From Methylobacter tundripaludum SV96 (GTDB lineage: Bacteria; Pseudomonadota; Gammaproteobacteria; Methylococcales; Methylomonadaceae), in the NCBI RefSeq assembly GCF_000190755.2, contig NZ_JH109153.1:1053872-1117871 (forward strand): DNA of 64,000 nt, written 5' to 3'. Positions 1,629 through 58,581 of the stretch are shown here, in pieces. The translations under genes and the position numbers were made by a program. Under the pieces are notes generated by a model, which saw only the letters and a list, made by a program, of their open reading frames with translations, had not been told where the DNA came from and made no database searches. Within the stretch, counting starts at the first letter, position 1, and every line of letters starts with the position of its first letter.

Positions 1629-2738
1629 ATGGAAAATAAAACCGGAATATTGACTGTTATCGCGCTGCTCATCAGTGGTTTGCTCATTGCACTGGTCGTC
1701 TGGTGGCTGGCGTGGCGCGAACCGCCTTTTCCCGAAGGACTGGTTCAGGCTAATGGCCGCATCGAGGGCGATCATTACACCGTGGCCGGTAAATGGCCGG
1801 GACGCGTCACTGAATTGCTGTCCAGGGAAGGCGATCCGGTTGAAAAAGGCCAAATTCTGGTCAAACTGGATGATGTCCAGACCCGCGCCCGATTAGATCA
1901 GGCCAAATCGGCGGTGGATGTCATTAAAGCAAAGCTCACGGCCGCGCAGACATCGCTGGCAATTTTCAAGAAAAACATCCCGTTAAAGGTAGAAACGGCT
2001 AAAGCCGGGGTTACCCATGCCAATGCGTTCCAGGCTTCCGCCAATGCCACTGAAGAACAGACTCGCAAGGATGCCGAGCGGTTCAGCGAACTGTTAAAAA
2101 GACAAACGGTAGACAAACAGCGCAGCGAACAGGCCGAGCTAAGCTGGAAGGTGGCGCATGCGCAGCGCACCACGGCTCAAGCTGCCGTTGTTCAGGCCGA
2201 AAAACTGTTGGCGGAAGCGGGGCTGGATTGGGACCAAGTCAAAGCCAGGGAGGACGAAGTCGCGGCACTGACTGCTCAAGTGACACAGGCCGAAGCGGCA
2301 CTGGCCGAGGCGCAAAGCATGCTGGACGATCTTGTTATTCGAGCGCCTGCGACCGGCATGATTACTACCCGTGTTGTCGACACCGGTGAAGTGGTGGCGG
2401 CAGGCAGTCCGCTATTCGACATTGTCGATCTGGATCGTCTGTATTTGAAAGTCTATGTGCCGGAAATAGAAATCGGCAAGGTTCGATTAGGTCTGCCTGC
2501 CCGGATTTATACCGATGCATTTCCGGATAAGCCATTTCCGGCGACGCTCCGTTATATTGCCTCCCAGGCGGAATTCACGCCTAAAGAAGTCCAGACCGCC
2601 GATGAGCGAATCAAGCTGGTCTATGCCGTCAAACTCTATCTGGATGAAAATCCGGATCACCGATTGACTCCCGGACTACCCGCCGACGCGGTGATTCGTT
2701 GGCAGGAGAACGCGCCATGGGCGAAACCCCGCTGGTAA
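1629..2738 (+). CDS. HlyD-family membrane fusion (periplasmic adaptor) protein
   Basis: Adaptor subunit of 369 residues linking an inner membrane ABC exporter to the TolC-like channel. One N-terminal membrane anchor (about residues 7-28) is followed by a biotinyl-lipoyl half-motif (VTELLSREGDPVEKGQ), a long coiled coil (about 75-215), the second lipoyl half (VIRAPATGMITTRVVDTGEV) and a beta-barrel region. The layout matches E. coli YhiI, which sits with YhiH and YhhJ in the same type of operon. Its 3' end overlaps the ATPase gene by 22 bases. Confidence 0.9.
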   Translation: MENKTGILTVIALLISGLLIALVVWWLAWREPPFPEGLVQANGRIEGDHYTVAGKWPGRVTELLSREGDPVEKGQILVKLDDVQTRARLDQAKSAVDVIKAKLTAAQTSLAIFKKNIPLKVETAKAGVTHANAFQASANATEEQTRKDAERFSELLKRQTVDKQRSEQAELSWKVAHAQRTTAQAAVVQAEKLLAEAGLDWDQVKAREDEVAALTAQVTQAEAALAEAQSMLDDLVIRAPATGMITTRVVDTGEVVAAGSPLFDIVDLDRLYLKVYVPEIEIGKVRLGLPARIYTDAFPDKPFPATLRYIASQAEFTPKEVQTADERIKLVYAVKLYLDENPDHRLTPGLPADAVIRWQENAPWAKPRW

Positions 2739-4681
2739 ATGAAAACCCTGTCATCAAAATACAGGGATTCTGCAAAAGCTATAAAAAACAGGCCGCCGTA
2801 AAAGGCGTTGACCTGAGTGTTGAGCGCGGCGAAATTTACGGACTGATCGGGCCGGACGGTTCCGGCAAGAGCAGTTTGATGAAGGCGATTGCCGGCGTGC
2901 TGTCCTTTGAACAAGGCGAGCTGGAAGTGTTCGGTATCAAGGTTGATTCCGAGTCGTCCGCAGAGCGCATAAAAGGGCGACTGGGTTTCATGCCGCAGGG
3001 GCTGGGCCTCAATCTCTACGGCGACTTGTCGGTCGAGGAAAATATCGATTTCTTTGCGCAACTGCGTCAGGTAACGCCCGCCCAACTTGCCGAGCGCAAA
3101 CAAAAGCTACTCAAAATAACCCGGCTGGACAAGTTTCGCGACCGGCCGATGAAAAATCTCTCCGGCGGCATGAAGCAAAAACTGGGGCTGGTTTGCACAC
3201 TGATTCATGGACCTGAACTGGTCGTCCTTGACGAACCCACAACCGGCGTTGATCCGGTTTCGCGCGGCGACTTCTGGGCCATTCTCGCCGAACTGCTACG
3301 CGAGCAGGGCGTTACGGCGTTGGTTTCTACGGCGTATATGGATGAAGCGGCTCGTTTCCATCGGCTTTCCTTGATGTATGACGGACGCATACTGGCCGCA
3401 GGAGAGCCGGAGTTTATTTGTCGGCAGGCGCAAGGCAGTCTGGTCGAGCTGTCGGCCGAACCCCAGATTCAGGCGCTGGATCAACTTAAAAATCATTATG
3501 CCCAGGTGGAAGCCATCGGCTCCCGGTTGCGGGTTTTTGTTGATGATAAATCTCCGAATGAGGCATCAAAAGCAGTCTCCGATTTGCTCGTTGGCGTCGA
3601 AGTTAAAGCCATTCGCGCCTCTGAAGCCGAACTGGAAGATGCCTTTATTGCCTTGTTGCGCAGGCGGCGACTGGCCGATCAGAAGACAAACAATCATGCC
3701 GTTCCCCGTCTGGATCCGCCGTTGCCTGAAGGTCAAGGCATCGCTATAGAGGCGCGGCAATTAACCCGCGATTTCGGTCAATTCCGTGCGGTCGACCGGA
3801 TCGATTTCACAGTTCGTCAAGGAGAGATATTCGGCCTGCTTGGAGCCAATGGAGCAGGCAAGACTACCGCCATTAAAATGCTGACCGGCATAGTGCCGCC
3901 CACCGCCGGAGAAGGTCAGGTGGCGGGCGCCGATATGCGTTATGCAGGACAAACTATCAAGGAACGCATCGGCTATATGTCGCAGGCGTTTTCCCTTTAT
4001 CTGGATCTGACGGTGCTGGAGAATATCCATCTTTATGCGCGCATTTATGGCGTTAGCAGGAGCATCATCAAGCAACGCATCGCCTGGGTAATAGACATTG
4101 CCGGATTAGCCGATGTCACCGGGCAGCTGACAGGCAGCCTGCCGATGGGTATCCGTCAGCGGCTGGCGTTGGGTTGTGCGCTGGCCCACCAGCCCGGCGT
4201 GCTTTTTCTGGATGAACCGACCTCAGGCGTCGATCCTGTCGGACGCCGCCGCTTCTGGGATATTCTGGTGCGCCTTGCCCGCGTGGAACAAGTCGCTATT
4301 CTGGTGACTACGCATTACATGAGTGAAGCCGAGCATTGCGATCATCTGGCGCTGATGTATGCAGGCCGTATCATAGCCGACGATTCACCAACAAACATGA
4401 TCCGGGCCTTGCAACAGGAAGCCGGGCAATTGCTTAAAATCGCCACCGACCGCCCACTGGAAGCGCTGGCTTTACTTAAACAGGCCGATTTCAAGGGTGC
4501 CGCTCTATTCGGCAAGCATATTCATCTGTTGGCGCTGGATATTGAAACAGTGAAAAAACAGATTGACGCCTTACTGGATAAACAGGCCATTCGGCTGATT
4601 GATTTGACTGTCCATGCGCCTACGCTGGAAGATGTTTTTGTTTACCGGGTTCTGGCCCTGGAAAACCAGGAGCTGTCATGA
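2717..4681 (+). CDS. ABC exporter ATPase with two nucleotide-binding domains (RbbA/YhiH-like)
   Basis: A 654-residue protein made of two ABC ATPase domains in tandem. Domain 1 has Walker A GPDGSGKS (45-52), signature LSGGMKQK (about 147) and Walker B LVVLDEPTTG (about 168). Domain 2 has Walker A GANGAGKT (about 375) and Walker B VLFLDEPTSG (about 494), but its signature reads LPMGIRQR rather than LSGGxxQR, so that site may be catalytically weak, as in other YhiH-type proteins. ATG 2717 was chosen because it follows a GGAGA ribosome site at 2704-2709. Unlike full-length RbbA, it has no membrane domain; two separate permeases follow, the first overlapping by ATGA. Confidence 0.92.
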   Translation: MGETPLVNENPVIKIQGFCKSYKKQAAVKGVDLSVERGEIYGLIGPDGSGKSSLMKAIAGVLSFEQGELEVFGIKVDSESSAERIKGRLGFMPQGLGLNLYGDLSVEENIDFFAQLRQVTPAQLAERKQKLLKITRLDKFRDRPMKNLSGGMKQKLGLVCTLIHGPELVVLDEPTTGVDPVSRGDFWAILAELLREQGVTALVSTAYMDEAARFHRLSLMYDGRILAAGEPEFICRQAQGSLVELSAEPQIQALDQLKNHYAQVEAIGSRLRVFVDDKSPNEASKAVSDLLVGVEVKAIRASEAELEDAFIALLRRRRLADQKTNNHAVPRLDPPLPEGQGIAIEARQLTRDFGQFRAVDRIDFTVRQGEIFGLLGANGAGKTTAIKMLTGIVPPTAGEGQVAGADMRYAGQTIKERIGYMSQAFSLYLDLTVLENIHLYARIYGVSRSIIKQRIAWVIDIAGLADVTGQLTGSLPMGIRQRLALGCALAHQPGVLFLDEPTSGVDPVGRRRFWDILVRLARVEQVAILVTTHYMSEAEHCDHLALMYAGRIIADDSPTNMIRALQQEAGQLLKIATDRPLEALALLKQADFKGAALFGKHIHLLALDIETVKKQIDALLDKQAIRLIDLTVHAPTLEDVFVYRVLALENQELS

Positions 4682-33689: not shown

Positions 33690-35036
33690 TTAAAGCGTTG
33701 CACACTCAGGCTCCAAAGCCGCCGAACAAAGCCGGTTTCTGCCGTCGGCTTTTGCCCGATACAGATTATTATCGGCAGCCGCCAATATGTGTTCGAAGCG
33801 CTCAAGACTAAGATCGTCACTCAGGCCCATACTCATGGTAACCTGAAGATCGGGATGTATGGTTGACCAGGGAAAACCCTCAATCAACTTACGCAGTCTT
33901 TCGCATTGTGCCGCTGCCTGCATCAACGGCGTTTCAGGAAAAATAACGACAAATTCCTCACCGCCATAACGGGCGACAATGTCGCTTGCACGTGTGCTGT
34001 TTTTCAATATGCCGGAAACGGCTTTTAGCACCTCGTCGCCGGTAGCATGGGAAAATCTGTCATTTATCCGCTTGAAATGATCGATATCGCCAATCATAAA
34101 GCTCAATGAATGGTTATATCGTTTCATTTGGGCAAAAAGCTTGATTGCCTGTTCATTAAAATAGCGACGATTATAGAGCTGGGTCAATTCATCGCGGATG
34201 CTCAGCTCTTTTAAAAGCAACGCCTGCTCGCTAATGGTGCGGTGGGACTCTTCCAGTTCCTCGTAGGCATGAGCAAGATCCGCACTCATGCGATTAAACG
34301 CTTCCGCAAGGATGCCTGTTTCGTCCTTGCCATGCACCGTCACTTTTTGCCGGAGTTCGCCCTGGTTCATGGCTCTGATAGCCATTGTCAGCTCATGAAG
34401 CGAGCTGCTTAACCGCTTACTGAGCAGAAAACCGAGAAAAATCGCCAGCATGCCGGCAATAAAAAATCCATATATCAGCGCTTCCCTGATTGTCGCCAGA
34501 TAATTCCGGTCTATCGCGGACAAATTGGGCTTACCCTGCGGAATCGCCAATGCCAGTACCTGGTTTTCCAGCATAACAGGACTCGCCCCCAAACGGGCCG
34601 ACACCGGCACAAATTCTCCATTTTCATATTTTCCGCCCCCCAATAACACCTTGCCCTGCGGATCCAGCAATATGAACAGGAACGGCGGAGCCCACTCAGG
34701 CTCATCCGGTATCGGCGGCGTCAATCGCCGCCCGGCAGGCCCTATCCGGCTTTTCGGCCCGGCAAAGAACGGTTCATCGGAAAGTGTGTCTGTCGGCATG
34801 TGCCTGCGTCTGACAAACTGGCCAAACCGTTCGACCTGTTGTGCTTCATTCCAAGACCCGTAAGAGGCAATATAGGCCGTAACATCCGCCTGGAAATTTT
34901 CAAAAGAGCGCTCCATCGCCATTTGGTCGAATCTTGTCGATACACGCCACTGGGCAACGACACCGACGACGATGACAGCACTCATACTGGTGATAATAAG
35001 CGCTAATGAAAGTTTAATTCTGAGTGAATGCATCAT
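33690..35036 (-). CDS. Membrane-bound diguanylate cyclase (HAMP-GGDEF)
   Basis: A 448-residue sensor protein making cyclic di-GMP. One helix at about 8-30, a periplasmic sensing domain resembling CHASE4 (about 31-185, rich in FENFQADVTAYIASYGSWNE-like helices), a second helix (about 188-210), a HAMP region (about 210-265) and a GGDEF domain (about 275-440). The active site reads GGEEF in RYGGEEFVVIF, the functional variant. An RxxD inhibitory site is not obvious upstream of it. It is 109 bases downstream of narI in the same direction, so it may be part of the nitrate operon. Confidence 0.92.
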   Translation of the reverse strand: MMHSLRIKLSLALIITSMSAVIVVGVVAQWRVSTRFDQMAMERSFENFQADVTAYIASYGSWNEAQQVERFGQFVRRRHMPTDTLSDEPFFAGPKSRIGPAGRRLTPPIPDEPEWAPPFLFILLDPQGKVLLGGGKYENGEFVPVSARLGASPVMLENQVLALAIPQGKPNLSAIDRNYLATIREALIYGFFIAGMLAIFLGFLLSKRLSSSLHELTMAIRAMNQGELRQKVTVHGKDETGILAEAFNRMSADLAHAYEELEESHRTISEQALLLKELSIRDELTQLYNRRYFNEQAIKLFAQMKRYNHSLSFMIGDIDHFKRINDRFSHATGDEVLKAVSGILKNSTRASDIVARYGGEEFVVIFPETPLMQAAAQCERLRKLIEGFPWSTIHPDLQVTMSMGLSDDLSLERFEHILAAADNNLYRAKADGRNRLCSAALEPECATL

Positions 35037-42462: not shown

Positions 42463-45138
42463 TCAACAAGGCATAGTCGCAGTTTTACGCGCGTAAAACC
42501 ACCAGGTAATGCCGATACATACCAGATAAAAAGATATGAAACAATACAATGCCGCATCGGGCGTGCCGGTCATGCTGATCGCCGTACCGTAACTCTTGGG
42601 GATAAAGAACGCGCCGTAAGCTGCAATCGCCGAGCTAAAACCCAGCACCGCCGCCGCTTCTTTTGCCGCATCTTTTTTGGCTTTGGCAATCGCTTCTTCG
42701 CCCTGCCCTTTTGCAGCACACAGCCGTTCAGTCATGAAGATAACCGGAATCATGCGGAAGGTGGAACCGTTGCCGATGCCGGTGGTGATAAACAACAGCA
42801 TGAACATCGCGAGGAAGCCCCAGAAATCGCCGGGATTTCCGGCCGAAGGCATAAAATGCAGCACGCCGAATACCGCACAAATCATGATAACGAAATTCCA
42901 CAACGTCACCTGCGCCCCGCCCAACTTATCAGCCAGCCAACCTCCGACGGGGCGAATTAACGCACCGACCAGCGGCCCCAAAAAGGCGTATTGAGTCGGG
43001 TTAATATCGGGAAACAGTATTTTGATCAGCATCGGAAAACCCGCAGCATAGCCGATAAACGAGCCGAATGTTCCGGTATAAAGCCAGCACATCAGCCAGT
43101 TATGTTTGCGCTTGAAAATGATCGACTGTTCTTTGAACGAAGCTTTAGCGGAGGCAATATCGTTCATGCCGAACCACGCCGCAATACTGGTGGCGATGAT
43201 AAACGGCACCCAGATAAAACCGGCGTTTTGCAGCCAGATGGATTTGGTCAGCGCGCCCTTAACCCACTCTTGCGGCTCGCCGCCCAGCGAACCGAACACG
43301 CCCGCGGCGATAACCAGCGGCACCACAAATTGCACGGTACTGACGCCCAAGTTGCCTAATCCGGCATTCAAGCCCAACGCCGTGCCTTTTTGGGATTGAG
43401 GATAAAAAAAGCTGATATTCGCCATGCTGGAGGCAAAGTTGCCGCCGCCGAAACCGCATAACAACGCCAACACCACCATTAACACATAAGGCGTTTCAGG
43501 ATTTTGCACTGCAAAACCGATCCATAAGGACGGCAACAGCAATGAAGCGGTGCTGATCGTCGTCCAGCGACGTCCGCCGAAAATAGGCACCATGAACGAA
43601 TAGAAAATCCGTAAAGTCGCCCCCGACAGACCCGGCAATGCCGCCAACCAGAACAATTCGTTGGTGGTGTATTTAAAGCCGATGCTGGGCAGGTTGATGA
43701 CCACGACGCTCCACACCATCCACACCGCAAACGCCAACAGCAAGGCGGGAATGCTGATCCACAGGTTACGGGTCGCGATACGCTTGCCGGTTGTTTCCCA
43801 AAAGCCTTGGTCTTCAGGATTCCAGTCGGTGAGCACCAGTGGAGCAGGATGGCTCAGCTCATGCAAGTCTTTGGATATTTTGGCCAATTCAGGCACTTCG
43901 CGACGCTCCATCCTCACAATGGAAAAATGCATCCAGCTCAGCGCGATCGTCATCAAAACGAACAGCAGCATAAAGCAGCTGCTCCAAATGCCGGTCAAAT
44001 CGTTCAACATGCCGAAAGTCAGCGGCAACAAGAATCCGCCCAGCCCGCCGACCATGCCCACAGCGCCGCCGACAGCACCGACATTATCGGGATAATAAAC
44101 CGGGATATGTTTGTACACCGCCGCCTTGCCGAATGACATGAACAGGCCCAGCACCGAAACCAGGAAAATAAAGCCCATCGGTTGAATCGCCAGACTAAAG
44201 GCAATGTCGCCCTTGCTGCCGTGAACGATGTAATCCGTAGGGGGATAGGACAGGAAAAATGTACAAATAGAGGCGACAATAAACGTCCAGTACATCAACA
44301 ACCGCGCCCCGTAACGGTCGGACAACCAGCCGCCCAACGCACGAAACAGACTGGCGAAAATGGAATACGCCGCAGCCAACATACCGGCCGACTTAATATC
44401 GAAACCGTAAGCCCCAACCAGATAGCGCGGCAACCACAACGCTAATGCGACAAAAGCGCCGAATACGCAGAAGTAATAAAGCGAAAACCGCCAGACCCGC
44501 ATATCCTTGAGCGGTTCCAGTTGTTTGAGGAATGACTCAGGTTTGACGCCAGACTCGCGACGTTGTTTAAGCATCGGCTCGTCATCGGTCACAAACCAGA
44601 AGATTGCCGCCATCAACAACAGGGCTGCCGCCCAGATTTGCGCTACCGCATGCCATCCGAATGCAACCATCACAAAAGGTGCGACGAATTTGGTCACCGC
44701 CGCCCCGACATTGCCGAGTCCGAAAATACCTAACGCCGTGCCTTGCTTCTCTTTAGGGAACCAACGCGAAACATAGGCAATGCCCACGGCAAACGAGCCG
44801 CCGGCAACCCCGATGCCGAGTGCGGTTACTAGAAACATGGTGTAAGTTTCAACGGTGGTCAGCAAGAAGGTAGCGATAGCCGCCGTCACCATAACCAGCA
44901 CATAAACGATACGGCCGCCGTACTGGTCGCTCCAGATGCCCAGCATCAGCCGGATTAACGAACCTGAAAGTATCGGCGTGCCGACCAGCAAGCCGAATTC
45001 GGTCTCGCTTAAATGCAGGTCTTTCTGGATTTGTAAGCCGATGATAGAAAAGATGGTCCACACCGCAAAGCAGGTGGTGAATGCCACCGTGCTCGCGGTA
45101 AGCGCGCGTTTTTGTTGGGAGGAATTAATGTATGACAC
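42463..45138 (-). CDS. narK: Fused nitrate/nitrite transporter NarK1-NarK2
   Basis: An 891-residue protein made of two MFS transporters in tandem (about 1-405 and 460-885), each with twelve predicted helices. Such NarK fusions, known from Paracoccus and other denitrifiers, combine a proton-coupled nitrate uptake half (NarK1) with a nitrate/nitrite exchange half (NarK2). Nitrate-signature-like glycine-rich segments are visible (GFGGGNFASSMANISFFYP in the second half; GNVGAAVTKFVAPF in the first). The linker (about 405-455) is hydrophilic. Start is GTG 45138. It is the first gene of the nar operon. Confidence 0.94.
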   Translation of the reverse strand: MSYINSSQQKRALTASTVAFTTCFAVWTIFSIIGLQIQKDLHLSETEFGLLVGTPILSGSLIRLMLGIWSDQYGGRIVYVLVMVTAAIATFLLTTVETYTMFLVTALGIGVAGGSFAVGIAYVSRWFPKEKQGTALGIFGLGNVGAAVTKFVAPFVMVAFGWHAVAQIWAAALLLMAAIFWFVTDDEPMLKQRRESGVKPESFLKQLEPLKDMRVWRFSLYYFCVFGAFVALALWLPRYLVGAYGFDIKSAGMLAAAYSIFASLFRALGGWLSDRYGARLLMYWTFIVASICTFFLSYPPTDYIVHGSKGDIAFSLAIQPMGFIFLVSVLGLFMSFGKAAVYKHIPVYYPDNVGAVGGAVGMVGGLGGFLLPLTFGMLNDLTGIWSSCFMLLFVLMTIALSWMHFSIVRMERREVPELAKISKDLHELSHPAPLVLTDWNPEDQGFWETTGKRIATRNLWISIPALLLAFAVWMVWSVVVINLPSIGFKYTTNELFWLAALPGLSGATLRIFYSFMVPIFGGRRWTTISTASLLLPSLWIGFAVQNPETPYVLMVVLALLCGFGGGNFASSMANISFFYPQSQKGTALGLNAGLGNLGVSTVQFVVPLVIAAGVFGSLGGEPQEWVKGALTKSIWLQNAGFIWVPFIIATSIAAWFGMNDIASAKASFKEQSIIFKRKHNWLMCWLYTGTFGSFIGYAAGFPMLIKILFPDINPTQYAFLGPLVGALIRPVGGWLADKLGGAQVTLWNFVIMICAVFGVLHFMPSAGNPGDFWGFLAMFMLLFITTGIGNGSTFRMIPVIFMTERLCAAKGQGEEAIAKAKKDAAKEAAAVLGFSSAIAAYGAFFIPKSYGTAISMTGTPDAALYCFISFYLVCIGITWWFYARKTATMPC

Positions 45139-45505
45139 GATATTTCGCCCTTATGTTTTTATTGTTATAGGCCCATACCCTACCATAAAACATATGGTAT
45201 TTATTCATATAAAATACATCTTATACTGGCTTCCTTAAGTCGTTCCATATCACCATGAAAGTTAACAACTAATTCCAGATAAATTTACATTTTCATCTAC
45301 AAAACAAGGAATACTGCAGACCTCAACAAGAAAAACATTGTCCGTAGCACTGCCACATTCGCGACAACCCGTAGTCGTGGCCGACACTGCCCAATTCAAT
45401 TAAAAACGTAAAGTTTATCCCCTACAAACCAGGCCATAGAATAGCTTCGCGACTTTTATCTTTTCATGTAGAATGCTTGAAGTTTAGCCTTAGTAAAAAT
45501 CAATC
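45139..45505. other. 367-base divergent region between narK and the CheY-like operon
   Basis: No gene found. It must hold the promoter of the nar operon (minus strand) and that of the signalling operon (plus strand). The only notable structure is the palindrome at 45181-45199; no convincing FNR or NarL box was seen. Confidence 0.6.
45181..45199. promoter_or_regulatory. Palindrome upstream of narK
   Basis: TACCATA-AAACA-TATGGTA (perfect 7-base arms) lies 43-61 bases upstream of the narK start. The outer halves recall NarL-type heptamers (TACYYMT) but do not match them fully. Candidate operator for nitrate or low-oxygen control. Confidence 0.35.
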
Positions 45506-45889
45506 ATGCCTGTGGACAGTTCAATAAAAAAACTTTTGATCGTCGATGATAGCAAGGTATCCAGAATGTTAATCCGCACACACATTCTTGTCCAACGCCC
45601 CGACTGGGTTATTTTTGAAGCTGTCTGCGGCGAAGACGCTATTGAACTGGCCGATAATGAGCGTCCAGACTATTGCACCATGGATATTAACATGCCGGGC
45701 ATTTCAGGAACCGATGCCGCAGAGCGGATATTATCTAAATATCCTTTAATGAAAATGGTTATTTTCTCGGCAAACATTCAAGAAACCCACAAAAATCGTG
45801 CCCGTTCGTTTGGGTCCATATTAGTTGCAAAACCAGTCACAGAAAAATCAATTGCTCTGACGCTAGACTATTTTACAAATTCCAAATGA
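45506..45889 (+). CDS. CheY-like response regulator receiver
   Basis: A 127-residue stand-alone receiver domain with the acidic pair D14/D15, phospho-acceptor D60 in CTMDINMPG and the conserved lysine K109 in LVAKP. No output domain is attached. It overlaps the CheC-like gene by ATGA and begins a three-gene operon, so it probably acts with the phosphatase and cyclase that follow. No kinase is encoded nearby. Confidence 0.93.
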   Translation: MPVDSSIKKLLIVDDSKVSRMLIRTHILVQRPDWVIFEAVCGEDAIELADNERPDYCTMDINMPGISGTDAAERILSKYPLMKMVIFSANIQETHKNRARSFGSILVAKPVTEKSIALTLDYFTNSK

Positions 45890-46500
45890 GCAATCTCAGC
45901 GAACTTCATCTTGATGCCTTGGCTGAGATATTTAGTATCGGCGCAGGCCGCGCAGCATTAAGCCTTAGCGAGATTGTCGGAGACGAAGTACATATTTCCG
46001 TCCCCTCTGTGCAAGTCATTAACGTAGAAGACATCAATGCGACAACATTATCGTTGAACAGTGGACGATTCGGTGCGGTAAGTCAGTACTTTAGCGGCCC
46101 GTTTAATGCCGAGGCGGTGCTTTTATTTACCGAAGAGCAAGCCTTAAAAATCGTCAGCGATATGATGGGCTCGCAGATGAGTCTTGAAGAACTTGCAGAA
46201 TTTGAGCACGAAGCGATGTGTGAATTGGGCAACATCATTTTGAATGCTTGCCTGTCCGCGATGGCTGACATACTCCACTTCACACTGGAAAGCTCCTTAC
46301 CCAATTACAGAGTCGCATCAGCCGATGAAATATTACATCGGCTCAAAGAAAACTCCAATCAGCCCTATGTGATGGTATTACATATCGATCTCGCCATCGA
46401 AAAGCGGCATACGACCGGCAATCTCGTATTCCTGTTAAGCTCCACATCCCTGACGAATCTTGTTATCCATATTAATCAATTTCTTGGCAGTATTTCATGA
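45886..46500 (+). CDS. CheC/CheX-like phosphatase
   Basis: A 204-residue CheC-family protein, expected to dephosphorylate CheY-P. CheC motifs have the form ExxN in helices 1 and 2. Here the second is intact (E113-L-G-N116 in AMCELGNIILNA) while the first reads E14-I-F-S17 in ALAEIFSIGAGRAAL, so one active site appears lost, as in some CheX proteins. It overlaps both neighbours by ATGA, suggesting a fixed ratio with the receiver and the cyclase. Confidence 0.85.
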   Translation: MSNLSELHLDALAEIFSIGAGRAALSLSEIVGDEVHISVPSVQVINVEDINATTLSLNSGRFGAVSQYFSGPFNAEAVLLFTEEQALKIVSDMMGSQMSLEELAEFEHEAMCELGNIILNACLSAMADILHFTLESSLPNYRVASADEILHRLKENSNQPYVMVLHIDLAIEKRHTTGNLVFLLSSTSLTNLVIHINQFLGSIS

Positions 46501-47474
46501 ATACCCTCAGTGCAAAGCGTTTTGATATGGAAGATATATTTAATTCACTAAACCTCGGGGTCTGCGTTGTCGATGCCGATAGCAAAGTATTGCTCTGGAA
46601 CAACTGGATTGCCAAGCATAGCGACATTAAAGAAACCGACGCCCTTAACCGGCAATTTGAAAACGTGTTTTCAGAGTCTGTGTCACCGGCATTCCTGACC
46701 GCACTCAAAAACACCCTGACACACAGACTGCCCGTGGTTTTGTCGACGGCTCTACACCGCACGCCGCTGCCGCTGTACAATGGATGCGAAGCAAATCAAC
46801 AACAAACCAGGATGTATCAATCGATCACCATCACGCCCATTCAGTCGCAACTGAACGAATCATGCTGCCTCATTCAAATAACGGATTCCAGCACCTCAAT
46901 CAAGCGTGAAAAAATGCTGCGCTCACACTCGGAAATCCTGAAGAAAGAAGCGACAACGGACAGTTTGACCGACATCTGCAACCGCCGATTCTTCGATGCG
47001 CATTACGAAATGGCCGTAGCCGAGGCAAAGCGGCAAAAACACCCCTTATCCATCTTCATGGTCGATATTGATTTTTTTAAGTCCTATAACGATTATTACG
47101 GACATATAGCCGGCGATAATGCAATAAAGCAGGTCGCGAGCGCGTTAAAATCGCAACTATCGCGCGCCACCGACATCGTGGCACGTTATGGCGGAGAAGA
47201 ATTCGTTCTGGTGATGCCGCATTTACCCCAGAAAGTCGCCGAACAATTTGCCGAAAAATTAAGAAGCGCCGTTTTTAATCTGGCAATGCCGCATATAAAA
47301 TCCCGCCCATTCAATCAGATAACGATTAGCGTCGGTCTTTGCACCGGCATTCCGGAAAACGACGACAACCTGTTAAACAAAGCTGACGCGGCACTCTATC
47401 AAGCCAAACTGAAAGGTCGCAACCGGTGCATTTGCCTCCCGCTTTGCGAAACCGAAGAATATCTGGAACAATAG
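46497..47474 (+). CDS. PAS-GGDEF diguanylate cyclase
   Basis: A 325-residue cytoplasmic protein with an N-terminal PAS-like domain (about 10-130; FNSLNLGVCVVDADSKVLLWN) and a C-terminal GGDEF domain (about 150-315) with RYGGEEFVLVM as active site, so it should make cyclic di-GMP. It contains no membrane helix. It is the output gene of the three-gene operon and may be controlled by the receiver encoded first. Confidence 0.93.
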   Translation: MNTLSAKRFDMEDIFNSLNLGVCVVDADSKVLLWNNWIAKHSDIKETDALNRQFENVFSESVSPAFLTALKNTLTHRLPVVLSTALHRTPLPLYNGCEANQQQTRMYQSITITPIQSQLNESCCLIQITDSSTSIKREKMLRSHSEILKKEATTDSLTDICNRRFFDAHYEMAVAEAKRQKHPLSIFMVDIDFFKSYNDYYGHIAGDNAIKQVASALKSQLSRATDIVARYGGEEFVLVMPHLPQKVAEQFAEKLRSAVFNLAMPHIKSRPFNQITISVGLCTGIPENDDNLLNKADAALYQAKLKGRNRCICLPLCETEEYLEQ

Positions 47475-47570: not shown

Positions 47571-49028
47571 ATGAAATTCAAACCATCCGCCATTACACTG
47601 GCTTTAAGCCTCGCCCTCTTCCCTGCCCCGCCACAGGCCGTTGAGATTACCAAAATCGAATTGCCTGACATGGGCGACTCTTCCGGCACCCTGATTACGC
47701 CCGCCGAAGAAAAAGAGTTTGGCGAAGCGTTTTTCCGCAGCCTGCACTCGCAAATTTCCATCAATCAGGATGCCGAAATTCAGCAATACATTCAAACTAT
47801 CGGCGAAAGACTGGTAGCCAATAGCGATGCACCGAGCAACCCGTTCCATTTCTTTGTGGTAATGGAAAATGACATTAATGCTTTTGCGGGACCTGGCGGC
47901 TATATTGGCGTAAATTCCGGGTTGATTTTAATCACCGAAGCCGAAAGCGAATTGGCATCGGTGATGGCGCACGAAATTGCCCACGTTACCCAACGCCATT
48001 TGTACCGCGCTTACGAGGCCTCCAGCCGCTTATCGATCCCTACTGCCGCTGCGACACTGGCCGCCATTTTATTGGGCACCCAATCCCCCGCTCTTGGACA
48101 AGCCGCCATCGTGGCTATCCAGGCCGGTAACGTTCAGTTTCAAATTGATTTTACGCGCGAAAACGAGGCGGAGGCTGACCGGGTCGGCATGCAAACCTTG
48201 GCAGGCTCCCAATATGACCCGCGCAGCATGCCCACTTTTTTCGAGCGTCTACAGCAATCCAGCCGCTATTACGGGCAGAACATTCCTGAATTTCTAAGGA
48301 CCCACCCGGTTACCGCCTCACGTATTTCCGACACCCGGGGCCGCGCGGAAACCTATCCCTACAAACAATATCCAGATTCGCTCGGCTACCAATTAGCCAA
48401 GGCAAAAATTCGGGTGTTAACCGGCGCCGACAATGCCGAGACGCTTAAATACTTTCAAGCCCGATCAACTCAAGGCACCATCGAACAACGCACCGTTGCC
48501 CGCTACGGGCTTGGCCTGTGCGCACTTAACTCGCAAAAATTCAATGAAGCGGAAACAATTTTCCAGCAACTCGGCAAGGAATACCCAAACCAGGCTCAAT
48601 ATGCAACCGCGCTTGCCCGCACTGCGCTGGACTCGAAAAACTACAGCACAGCGCTGGCTCGCTATAAAAAACTGACCGAGCAATTTCCCGATAACGAGGC
48701 CATTAAGCTCGAATACATTACCTCCCTGCTAAAAGCCGGTAACGCCGACCTGGCACGGAAAAACTTACTTCTGTTAAAGCCTAAAACCCAGCAACAACCG
48801 ATTTATTCGCAGCTATTGGCACAAGTTTATAGCGACTTAAACCAACCCGCCGAATCTCATCGTTATCTTGCGGAATACTACTATGCAACGGGGCAAACCA
48901 GAGATGCAATCCTGCAAATAAAACTGGCTCAAAAATCAAAAGGCCTTAATTTTCAACTATCTTCCATCCTTAATGAACGACTCAACTTCTTTACCAATGA
49001 GGAAGAAGAGGCCAGACGCAATCGGTGA
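47571..49028 (+). CDS. bepA: M48-family metalloprotease with TPR repeats (BepA-like)
   Basis: A periplasmic zinc protease of 485 residues that in E. coli (BepA/YfgC) checks the assembly of outer membrane proteins. A signal peptide (about 1-23) precedes the M48 domain with HEIAH (H134, E135, H138) and the glutamate ligand in TRENEAEADRVG (about 196-207). The C-terminal half (about 300-480) has TPR-type repeats. The enzyme lies downstream of the signalling operon after 96 bases and is probably transcribed on its own. Confidence 0.9.
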   Translation: MKFKPSAITLALSLALFPAPPQAVEITKIELPDMGDSSGTLITPAEEKEFGEAFFRSLHSQISINQDAEIQQYIQTIGERLVANSDAPSNPFHFFVVMENDINAFAGPGGYIGVNSGLILITEAESELASVMAHEIAHVTQRHLYRAYEASSRLSIPTAAATLAAILLGTQSPALGQAAIVAIQAGNVQFQIDFTRENEAEADRVGMQTLAGSQYDPRSMPTFFERLQQSSRYYGQNIPEFLRTHPVTASRISDTRGRAETYPYKQYPDSLGYQLAKAKIRVLTGADNAETLKYFQARSTQGTIEQRTVARYGLGLCALNSQKFNEAETIFQQLGKEYPNQAQYATALARTALDSKNYSTALARYKKLTEQFPDNEAIKLEYITSLLKAGNADLARKNLLLLKPKTQQQPIYSQLLAQVYSDLNQPAESHRYLAEYYYATGQTRDAILQIKLAQKSKGLNFQLSSILNERLNFFTNEEEEARRNR

Positions 49029-55746: not shown

Positions 55747-58581
55747 ATGAAGACCAATATGCCGGTAACCAATGTAGAGTATTCGCTTAAAGAGAGCGAC
55801 TCCATCGTATCCAAGACTGACTTAAAAGGGATGATTACCGACATCAATGAGGACTTTCTTCGGGTTAGCGGATTTACCAAAGCAGAGCTGATCGGCTTTC
55901 CGCACAATATAGTGAGGCATCCGGACATGCCGCCGGAAGCGTTTGCAGATATGTGGAAGGCATTGAAAGAAAATCGCCCGTGGACCGGACTGGTAAAAAA
56001 TCGCTGCAAAAACGGCGACTTCTACTGGGTGCTGGCCAATGCCACACCCTTTTATGAAAACGATCAGCTGGCCGGTTACATGTCGGTACGCAGCAAACCC
56101 AGCCGGGACCAAGTCACTGCAGCCGATGCCGCCTACCGGCTGTTTAAGGAAGGCAAAGCCGGCAATCTGAAAATCCAGGACGGAAAAGTCGTCAAATCAA
56201 CTTTTTGGGGGAAATTCAACCCCTTCAATAACCCCACGATCAAAAGTCGTTTGGTAACCGTTATCGGCCTGCTGAGCATATTGATGATGATCATCGGCGG
56301 CATGGGCCTGCATGGCATGGACAAGGCCAATGACGGCTTGCGCACGGTGTATGAGGACCGCACGGTGCCGATGAACCAGATTTCCACTATCAAGGAACTG
56401 ATGCTGACCAACCAACTGAGACTTACCGCTACCTTGGTTACGCCAACGCCCGAGGCGATCCGGAACAACACCGGTGAAGTAGAACAAAACATCGCGGAAA
56501 TCAGCAGGATTTGGACGACCTACATGACCACCTACCTAACCGCCGAAGAAGAAAAGCTGGCCGACCAGTTCACCGCAGACAGAAAACTGTTTGTAGAGGA
56601 AGGTTTGAAACCGACCCTTGCTGCGCTGAAAGCCCATGACCTCGAACTCGCCAACAAGCTTGCTGTAGACAAGATTAACCCGCTTTTTAAACCCGCTAAC
56701 GAAGATATCAAGCTTTTGATGCAATTGCAGGTCGATGTCGCCAGGCAGGAGTTTGAATTGGCGCAATCCCGCTATGACCGCACCCGTAACATCGGCATCG
56801 GCTTGATCGCGATGGGCACACTGCTGGCCTTATGGCAGGGCTTTCTTCTGATTCGTGTCATTGTGCGTCCGCTTGATGCCGCTATCAGCGATTTTGGCCG
56901 CATCGCCCAAGGCAACTATAACAACGCCATAGCTATTGAACGCCATGACGAAATCGGCAAGGTGATGGAAGCGCTTAAATCCATGCAGATCAAACTCGGT
57001 TTCGACGTTGCGGAAAGCAAACGCATTACCGATGAAAGCTTACGCATCAAAATCGGCCTGGACAGCTCCACGTCCGCGATCACCATATCCGGCACCGATA
57101 CCCTGCTAATCCACATGACCCCGGCGGCCAAGAGTCTTCTTGCTTCGATAGGCGGCCCCGATTTCAATGTCGAAGGCCTCTACGGCAACAGCCTCTCCAA
57201 GCTGTTCAACAATCCGGAAGCTGCCGCCAAATTCGATCGCGCCGCACAAACCGGCGAAGACGTGGACTTGTTCTTTCAGGATCATCACCTCCGTCTGGCC
57301 GCCCGCCCCATCATTGGCGAAAGCGGCAACTCGCTGGGCCGGGTAACGCAATGGCTGGATCGCACCGCCGAAGTCGAGGTAGAACAGGAAGTGGCCGCCA
57401 TTGTCCACGCCGCAGTCATGGGCGATTTCACCCGGCGCATTGAAATGCAAGGTAAAAAGGATTTCTTTAAGCAACTGGGCGAAGGGCTTAACGAACTGCT
57501 GGAAACCACCGAGAGCGGCATCAATGATGTGGTGCGCGTACTGGACGCACTGTCCCGCAGCGACTTGACCCAAACCATCACCAGCAACTATGCCGGAAGT
57601 TTCGGGCAACTCAAGGACGACGCCAATACCACGGTGGAAAAACTCAAGGAAATCATCAGTCAAATCAAGGAAGCGACCGACAGCATTAACACCGGCTCTA
57701 AAGAAATCGCCTCGGGCAATAATGACTTGTCGCATCGCACCGAGGAGCAAGCCGCCAGCCTGGAAGAAACTGCGGCCAGCATGGAACAGCTGACCTCCAC
57801 CGTGCAGCATAATGCCGCCAACGCCAGCCAAGCCAACCAACTTGCCGTTGACGCATCCGATATCGCCGGTAAAGGCGTCGAAGTGGTCGGCCAGGTGGTT
57901 CGAACCATGGACGACATTAACGATTCGTCGCGCAAGATCGGCGATATTATTTCGGTCATCGACGACATTGCGTTCCAAACCAACATCCTTGCCCTCAACG
58001 CCGCCGTCGAAGCGGCGCGCGCCGGGGATCAAGGCCGGGGCTTTGCCGTGGTCGCCGTCGAAGTGCGCAACCTTGCGCAACGCGCCGCCACGGCTGCCGG
58101 AGAGATCAAAACCCTGATTGACGATTCGGTCATTAAAGTCTCCAGCGGCAGTCAATTGGTCACGCAAGCCGGTCAAACCATGGAAGAAATCGTCAATTCC
58201 ATTCGCGGCGTTACCGTCATGATGTCTGAAATCAGCGCCGCCTCAACGGAACAGACGGCCGGTATTGAGCAGGTCAACCAGGCCATCACCCAGATGGACG
58301 ATGTAACCCAACAGAATGCCGCACTGGTAGAGCAAGCCGCCGCCGCAGCGGAATCACTGGAAGAACAGGCTCAAAACCTGTCGGATACGGTAGCGCAATT
58401 CAAAGTGGACGGTTACTCTCGCAATGCCCACGGAGCCGTGTCTCAAGCCACGTCTTTTCATGCAACACCGCTACGCAAAGAAACGGTACAAGCGTCAAGA
58501 ACAGTGGCAACCCAAAAACCGGCAGCAGCCCGTCATCAACCAATACAGCAGTCTTCCAGCGATGAATGGGAAGAGTTTTAG
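55747..58581 (+). CDS. Methyl-accepting chemotaxis protein with N-terminal PAS (Aer-like)
   Basis: A 944-residue chemoreceptor. An N-terminal Aer-like PAS domain (about 10-125; [19 protein letters not shown] and [16 protein letters not shown]) may sense redox or FAD state; TM1 (about 166-188), a periplasmic four-helix domain (about 190-345), TM2 (about 348-372), HAMP segments (about 375-430 and 575-640) with a PAS-like region between, and the signalling hairpin [18 protein letters not shown] (about 742-759). The C-terminus EWEEF is of the WxxF type that binds CheR/CheB, so adaptation is likely. No other che genes lie beside it, apart from the CheY/CheC-like pair 10 kb away. Confidence 0.94.

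Follow-up and report, generated by a model that had tools for sequence, protein, structure and literature searches.

Three genes of Methylobacter tundripaludum SV96 encode a stand-alone receiver, a CheC-like protein, and a PAS-GGDEF diguanylate cyclase (Table 1). Positions are those of the window, the whole stretch of 64,000 nucleotides that was analyzed. The three genes lie on the plus strand, and ATGA overlaps join the receiver gene to the CheC-like gene (45886–45889) and the CheC-like gene to the cyclase gene (46497–46500). An earlier note, made from the DNA letters, had described a three-gene operon linked in this way, and its coordinates, order, strand, and both overlaps proved exact. A scan for promoters and terminators gave no more matches than shuffled sequences did.

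Table 1. Features of the operon and its upstream region, in window positions.
Feature	Position	Strand	Description
Intergenic region between divergent narK and the receiver gene	45139..45505	.	From the sequence
Receiver gene	45506..45889	+	Stand-alone, PdcC-like, 127 aa; predicted phospho-acceptor D60; Pfam PF00072 Response_reg 2.5e-17
CheC-like gene	45886..46500	+	PdcB-like predicted phosphatase, 204 aa; Pfam CheX PF13690 3.3e-09, CheC PF04509 4.7e-07
CheC site 1, E14-I-F-S17	45925..45936	+	EIFS, Asn lost; Ser in 17/17 Methylobacter rows
CheC site 2, E113-L-G-N116	46222..46233	+	ELGN, intact; from the sequence and alignment of homologues
PAS-GGDEF diguanylate cyclase gene	46497..47474	+	PdcA-like, 325 aa; Pfam GGDEF 1e-44
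Module-specific PAS domain of the cyclase	46536..46913	+	173 bits with profile A2 (profile includes the window row)

The receiver carries the full acceptor set of D14, D15, D60, S88, and K109, each of which is conserved in 87–89 of 89 module receivers. In the cyclase, GGEEF is accompanied by RATD at the position of the RxxD inhibitory site, and the enzyme is therefore predicted to be active and product-inhibited. By Pfam its PAS domain scores 2.5e-04, just under the Pfam cut-off. A second GGDEF protein, of 448 aa, is encoded elsewhere in the window (33690–35036, minus strand).

The CheC-like protein is the sole CheC/CheX match above cut-off in its genome. Its family profile matches the T. maritima CheC structure 1xkr at E 1.6e-24, and a single-chain AlphaFold2 model built from 17 close sequences (pLDDT 88.4) is nearest in fold to 1xkr (TM 0.85), followed by FliY 4hyn. 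The CheX structures (1squ, 1xko, 3hm4, 3hzh, 6vpw) have a related fold but are shorter and match less well, with TM 0.48–0.55 by query length. The structural comparison with CheX proposed in the earlier note thus places the model nearer to CheC, and a CheX identity is ruled out by the fold ranking; at 204 aa the protein is also longer than CheX. With T. maritima CheC (1xkr, 2f9z) it shares the two-site fold of ~200 aa, from which it differs by the loss of the first ExxN site and by lying outside any chemotaxis cluster. Fold and length are those of a classical two-site CheC, but the two sites, EIFS and ELGN, are not.

Loss of the first site had been noticed in the earlier note and is confirmed in all 17 Methylobacter rows. 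Among 111 non-repeated homologues (L062 and L070, repeats of L152 and L158, were removed from an earlier count of 113), both sites read E..N in 62, only site 1 does so in 31, only site 2 in 18, and neither in none. One site thus departs from E..N in 49 of the 111, where "lost" means such a departure and a D..N may still work. The 18 rows with only site 2 are the 17 Methylobacter rows (the window and 16 loci) and L067; among the rows examined, loss of site 1 is confined to these, and all remaining rows have E..N there. In the Burkholderia cenocepacia and Caballeronia records and in the receiver-CheC fusions, site 1 is kept and site 2 is D..N, D..S, or D..T. Since changes at the sites group along lineages, the counts do not represent independent events. 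Read from the alignment, the pattern would fit a CheC protein that needs one working ExxN site, without proving it.

With our own profiles, which detect some but not every kind of kinase, neither a HisKA-type kinase nor a second receiver was found in the window, in the 19.9 kb before it, or in the 14.0 kb after it. The earlier statement that no histidine kinase is nearby stands for kinases within reach of the profile. A putative PAS chemoreceptor of 944 aa, recognized by reading the sequence, is encoded 8 kb downstream of the module (55747–58581, plus strand), so the window is not entirely devoid of chemosensory genes.

The order receiver-CheC-PAS-GGDEF is found at 16/16 named Methylobacter loci and at 17/17 genus hits of the genome set, two sets that overlap. 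A search for the same order in other genomes had been suggested, and the order is not unique to this one. Six of the 23 genus-set genomes have no CheC match; completeness is 70–90% in five of them and 99% in the sixth (G004). In wider sets, the CheC protein is present in 25 of 61 relatives, in 66 of 369 genomes of a class draw (E 1e-10 or better), and in 105 of 398 genomes of a phylum draw. Flanks were examined at the class CheC places (73, minus 20 low-scoring ones) and at part of the phylum places, and L163 (at a contig end) and L164 (with overlapping frames) were excluded from the resulting set and from the CheC tree.

Outside Methylobacter, this set comprises 78 CheC rows. In 60 of them the gene directly upstream encodes a receiver, in 12 the receiver is fused to CheC, and in 6 the directly upstream position holds no receiver. 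The special PAS domain follows directly downstream in 67; receiver, CheC, and special PAS occur together, adjacent or fused, in 62. The downstream gene carries GGDEF in 45 rows (in 14 of which the locus also shows an EAL domain), a histidine kinase in 22, and a PAS alone in 3, one of them (L090) cut by a contig end. None of these follows in the other 8, and 3 of those are second CheC copies adjoining another CheC. The exceptions downstream of CheC include the kinase of L165 and the REC-GGDEF-EAL proteins of L068 and L156, each lacking the special PAS. The order is also recognizable in the annotation of the Phytobacter diazotrophicus plasmid pTMTA97303 (response regulator, chemotaxis protein CheC, diguanylate cyclase), and an Azospirillum plasmid has the differing order CheC, PAS-kinase, receiver.

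Two side observations concern particular loci. In L110 (genome G035, 2655–3590), a CheC gene with an internal stop lies behind a receiver 62% identical to that of the window, with no PAS gene; judged by these reading frames, the module seems to be decaying there. In L104 and L106, from two genomes of the same taxonomic order, the module is immediately preceded by a REC-REC-GGDEF gene, and a single receiver-CheC pair may therefore serve two cyclases.

The PAS domain is closely tied to the module. Profile A2, made from 24 N-terminal domains of module third genes and including rows from some of the genomes searched, scores the window cyclase far above its next-best match in that genome (20 bits). 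The N-terminal domains of the third genes resemble one another whether a cyclase or a kinase comes after them. Of the 369 class genomes, 56 have both CheC and PAS, 10 CheC only, 3 PAS only, and 300 neither, which gives PAS matches in 59 genomes; Fisher's test of this co-occurrence ignores kinship. Two of the 10 genomes with CheC only (G093 and G198) do have a PAS behind CheC by another profile. At the level of single matches, 56 of 62 class PAS matches lie directly behind CheC and 6 apart from any CheC. The 61 relatives, searched for CheC and PAS with differing cut-offs, divide into 24 with both, 1 with CheC only, 1 with PAS only, and 35 with neither. These profile matches mark the PAS as a subfamily specific to the module, with an output that alternates between a diguanylate cyclase and a histidine kinase.

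When the outputs cyclase and kinase are mapped on a CheC tree of 84 rows, 10 changes are needed. The output has therefore been exchanged more than once, although several long branches meet in this tree and its support is of a quick kind. SH-aLRT support is 98% for L107 (PAS-GGDEF-EAL) and L108 (PAS-kinase-REC-REC) as sisters. PAS-alone genes stand behind a receiver-CheC fusion in Pseudomonas asturiensis (as annotated) and in Aeromonas caviae (by profile).

Among described systems, pdcABC of Burkholderia thailandensis (BTH_II2363–II2365) is the closest. According to the accessible part of the review PMC9899790, PdcC in its phosphorylated form binds to the PAS domain of the PdcA cyclase, which it inhibits, and PdcB, a phosphatase with a CheC/CheX domain, dephosphorylates PdcC and thereby raises the activity of PdcA; repression of PdcA by PdcC is repeated in the part of PMC12421958 that was available. 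A table in the same portion of PMC9899790 ties BCAM2836 and BTH_II2363 (pdcA) to one B. pseudomallei protein, at 85.7% and 97.4%, respectively. As far as the available text of PMC3296584 goes, loss of BCAM2837, which has CheC and receiver domains, leaves swimming intact and impairs swarming, and the receiver-CheC protein is presumed to be transcribed together with a cyclase and a kinase, an arrangement that was thus already published. The motility effects reported in Burkholderia agree in direction with the model set out below, across differing strains and assays, and the attachment result does not.

PdcABC, BCAM2836–BCAM2837, and the window operon are alike in bringing a receiver, a CheC/CheX phosphatase, and a PAS-GGDEF cyclase together at one locus. 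In the B. cenocepacia record, the order is receiver-CheC-PAS-GGDEF and the PAS belongs by profile to the same subfamily as that of Methylobacter (129 bits with profile PAS3, iterated over module loci). The two differ in that B. cenocepacia has an adjoining hybrid kinase and keeps CheC site 1 (EIAN) with DVAN at the second site, whereas the Methylobacter operon has no adjacent kinase gene and retains site 2 rather than site 1. The hybrid kinase lies upstream on the opposite strand in both the B. cenocepacia and the Caballeronia records; such a neighboring kinase accompanies the Pdc-type module there but does not define it. Identity to the Burkholderiaceae proteins is 27–30% for the cyclase, 28–31% for the receiver, and 24% for CheC (Caballeronia); BLASTP gave no match between the window CheC and B. 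cenocepacia CheC at E 1e-3, and the B. cenocepacia CheC and PAS were found via profiles of module members. PSYR0886 of Pseudomonas syringae resembles the protein by description, being listed as a CheC-like response regulator in the accessible part of PMC2222644. Vibrio VC0377, of the CheX family, was considered as a precedent and rejected, since the available portion of PMC8789113 describes no operon of such kind; the accessible parts of PMC9239204 and PMC2222644 likewise contain no comparable operon.

Adjacent genes on one strand, active-site residues in cyclase and receiver, and a PAS of the module-specific subfamily are all present in the window. Judged by its gene order, domains, and PAS profile, the operon is probably best read as a Pdc-type module, in a comparison that covered sequences of the B. 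cenocepacia and Caballeronia records. In such a module, an unlinked kinase would phosphorylate the receiver at D60, and the phospho-receiver would dock on the cyclase PAS and alter its activity. The effect of docking would most likely be lowered cyclase activity, as reported in B. thailandensis. This sign is the least certain step and could differ, because the Methylobacter PAS is closer to the kinase and GGDEF-EAL versions than to the Burkholderia-like version. The CheC-like protein, if it is a phosphatase, would reset the switch by removing the phosphate, using only its second ExxN site, and the cyclase may also be limited by product feedback at the RxxD site. Gene order, domains, catalytic residues, conservation, and the tie between PAS and module are observed. 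The conservation, the receiver-CheC fusions, and the described pdcABC also give good support to a small module of phospho-signalling that acts on c-di-GMP. The earlier description as a "small phospho-relay controlling cyclic di-GMP" holds for phospho-signalling on c-di-GMP, and a relay receives no support, as no phosphotransfer chain is encoded here.

Other explanations have to be weighed against this one. It had been suggested that the divergent narK promoter may tie the operon to nitrate or low oxygen. The narK gene (42463–45138, minus strand) encodes a protein of 891 aa that looks, by sequence reading, like two fused transporter halves, and narG lies behind it. Sixteen Methylobacter loci are informative, namely the window and 15 fetched loci; L042 was left out for having too little upstream sequence. 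In 13 of the 16 (the window and 12 of the 15 others), narK lies within about 5 kb upstream, which speaks for a nitrate- or oxygen-responsive module. It is close and divergent, however, in only five, with a gap below 0.7 kb in the window, L027, L028, L037, and L040. The gap exceeds 1 kb in eight (L029–L032, L035, L038, L039, L041), and the seven of these with listed reading frames have a 410–445 aa protein or a 167–194 aa regulator-like protein in between; no narK occurs within about 4.6 kb upstream of the module in L033, L034, and L036. Loci of other genera, mostly covered for only 2–3 kb upstream, gave no narK match. A search for FNR-like sites tells little, since the match at 45490 carries 2 mismatches and the window holds 59 matches of this kind against 36 expected in shuffles. 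The adjacency of narK is local and not part of the module, and regulation of the module from the narK promoter is highly improbable.

Two further alternatives concern the CheC-like protein itself. It may serve the chemotaxis systems of the cell together with CheD and damp CheY-P, the receiver and cyclase being merely co-transcribed. The genome does have four CheA-type and three CheD matches and no other CheC/CheX above cut-off, and a CheC-CheD complex is known from T. maritima (2f9z). Across Pseudomonadota, however, CheC accompanies a receiver and the special PAS, to the point of fusion with the receiver, which makes a role in chemotaxis quite unlikely. Receiver and CheC might instead not be substrate and enzyme but form an adaptor that acts on the PAS in a phosphorylation-dependent way, with phosphatase activity marginal after the loss of one site. 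Such an adaptor would suit both the frequent departure of one ExxN site from E..N and the PAS-alone genes of P. asturiensis and A. caviae, but none of the 111 homologues lacks both sites and PdcB is reported as a phosphatase in the accessible part of PMC9899790; we regard the adaptor, too, as unlikely.

The preferred Pdc-type reading can be extended, more tentatively and with somewhat less than an even chance of being right, to the phylum. Receiver, CheC, and PAS would form a portable Pseudomonadota cassette in which the PAS docks the phospho-receiver, the enzyme behind the PAS is repeatedly exchanged (diguanylate cyclase with or without phosphodiesterase, or histidine kinase), and reset by CheC needs one of the two sites. 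If so, the same two proteins would gate either c-di-GMP synthesis or a kinase. The Pdc mechanism is already known; what is new is the Methylobacter member, by which a c-di-GMP switch described in Burkholderia would be carried over to methanotrophs, and the comparative extension. A literature search, with most subscription papers outside its reach, found no paper in which the words Methylobacter and CheC both occur, and none whose title or abstract deals with the PAS subfamily or with the switching of outputs. Through the comparative pattern, a mechanism from a single species becomes testable in general, as docking of the receiver on the PAS subfamily whatever the enzyme, and a second general question arises, whether one ExxN site is enough. 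A CheC domain also need not imply chemotaxis.

Two neighbors of the module recur. A 410–445 aa protein, with a start that looks export-like by sequence reading, is encoded directly upstream of the receiver in L030, L032, L035, L036, L038, L039, and L041 but not in the window. An M48 protease with TPR repeats (47571–49028, plus strand, in the window) lies 3′ of the module in 15 of the 16 named Methylobacter loci, the remaining one (L039) ending before its position, and it also adjoins a receiver-CheC-PAS-kinase module of another family (L143 and L146; 43–45% identity).
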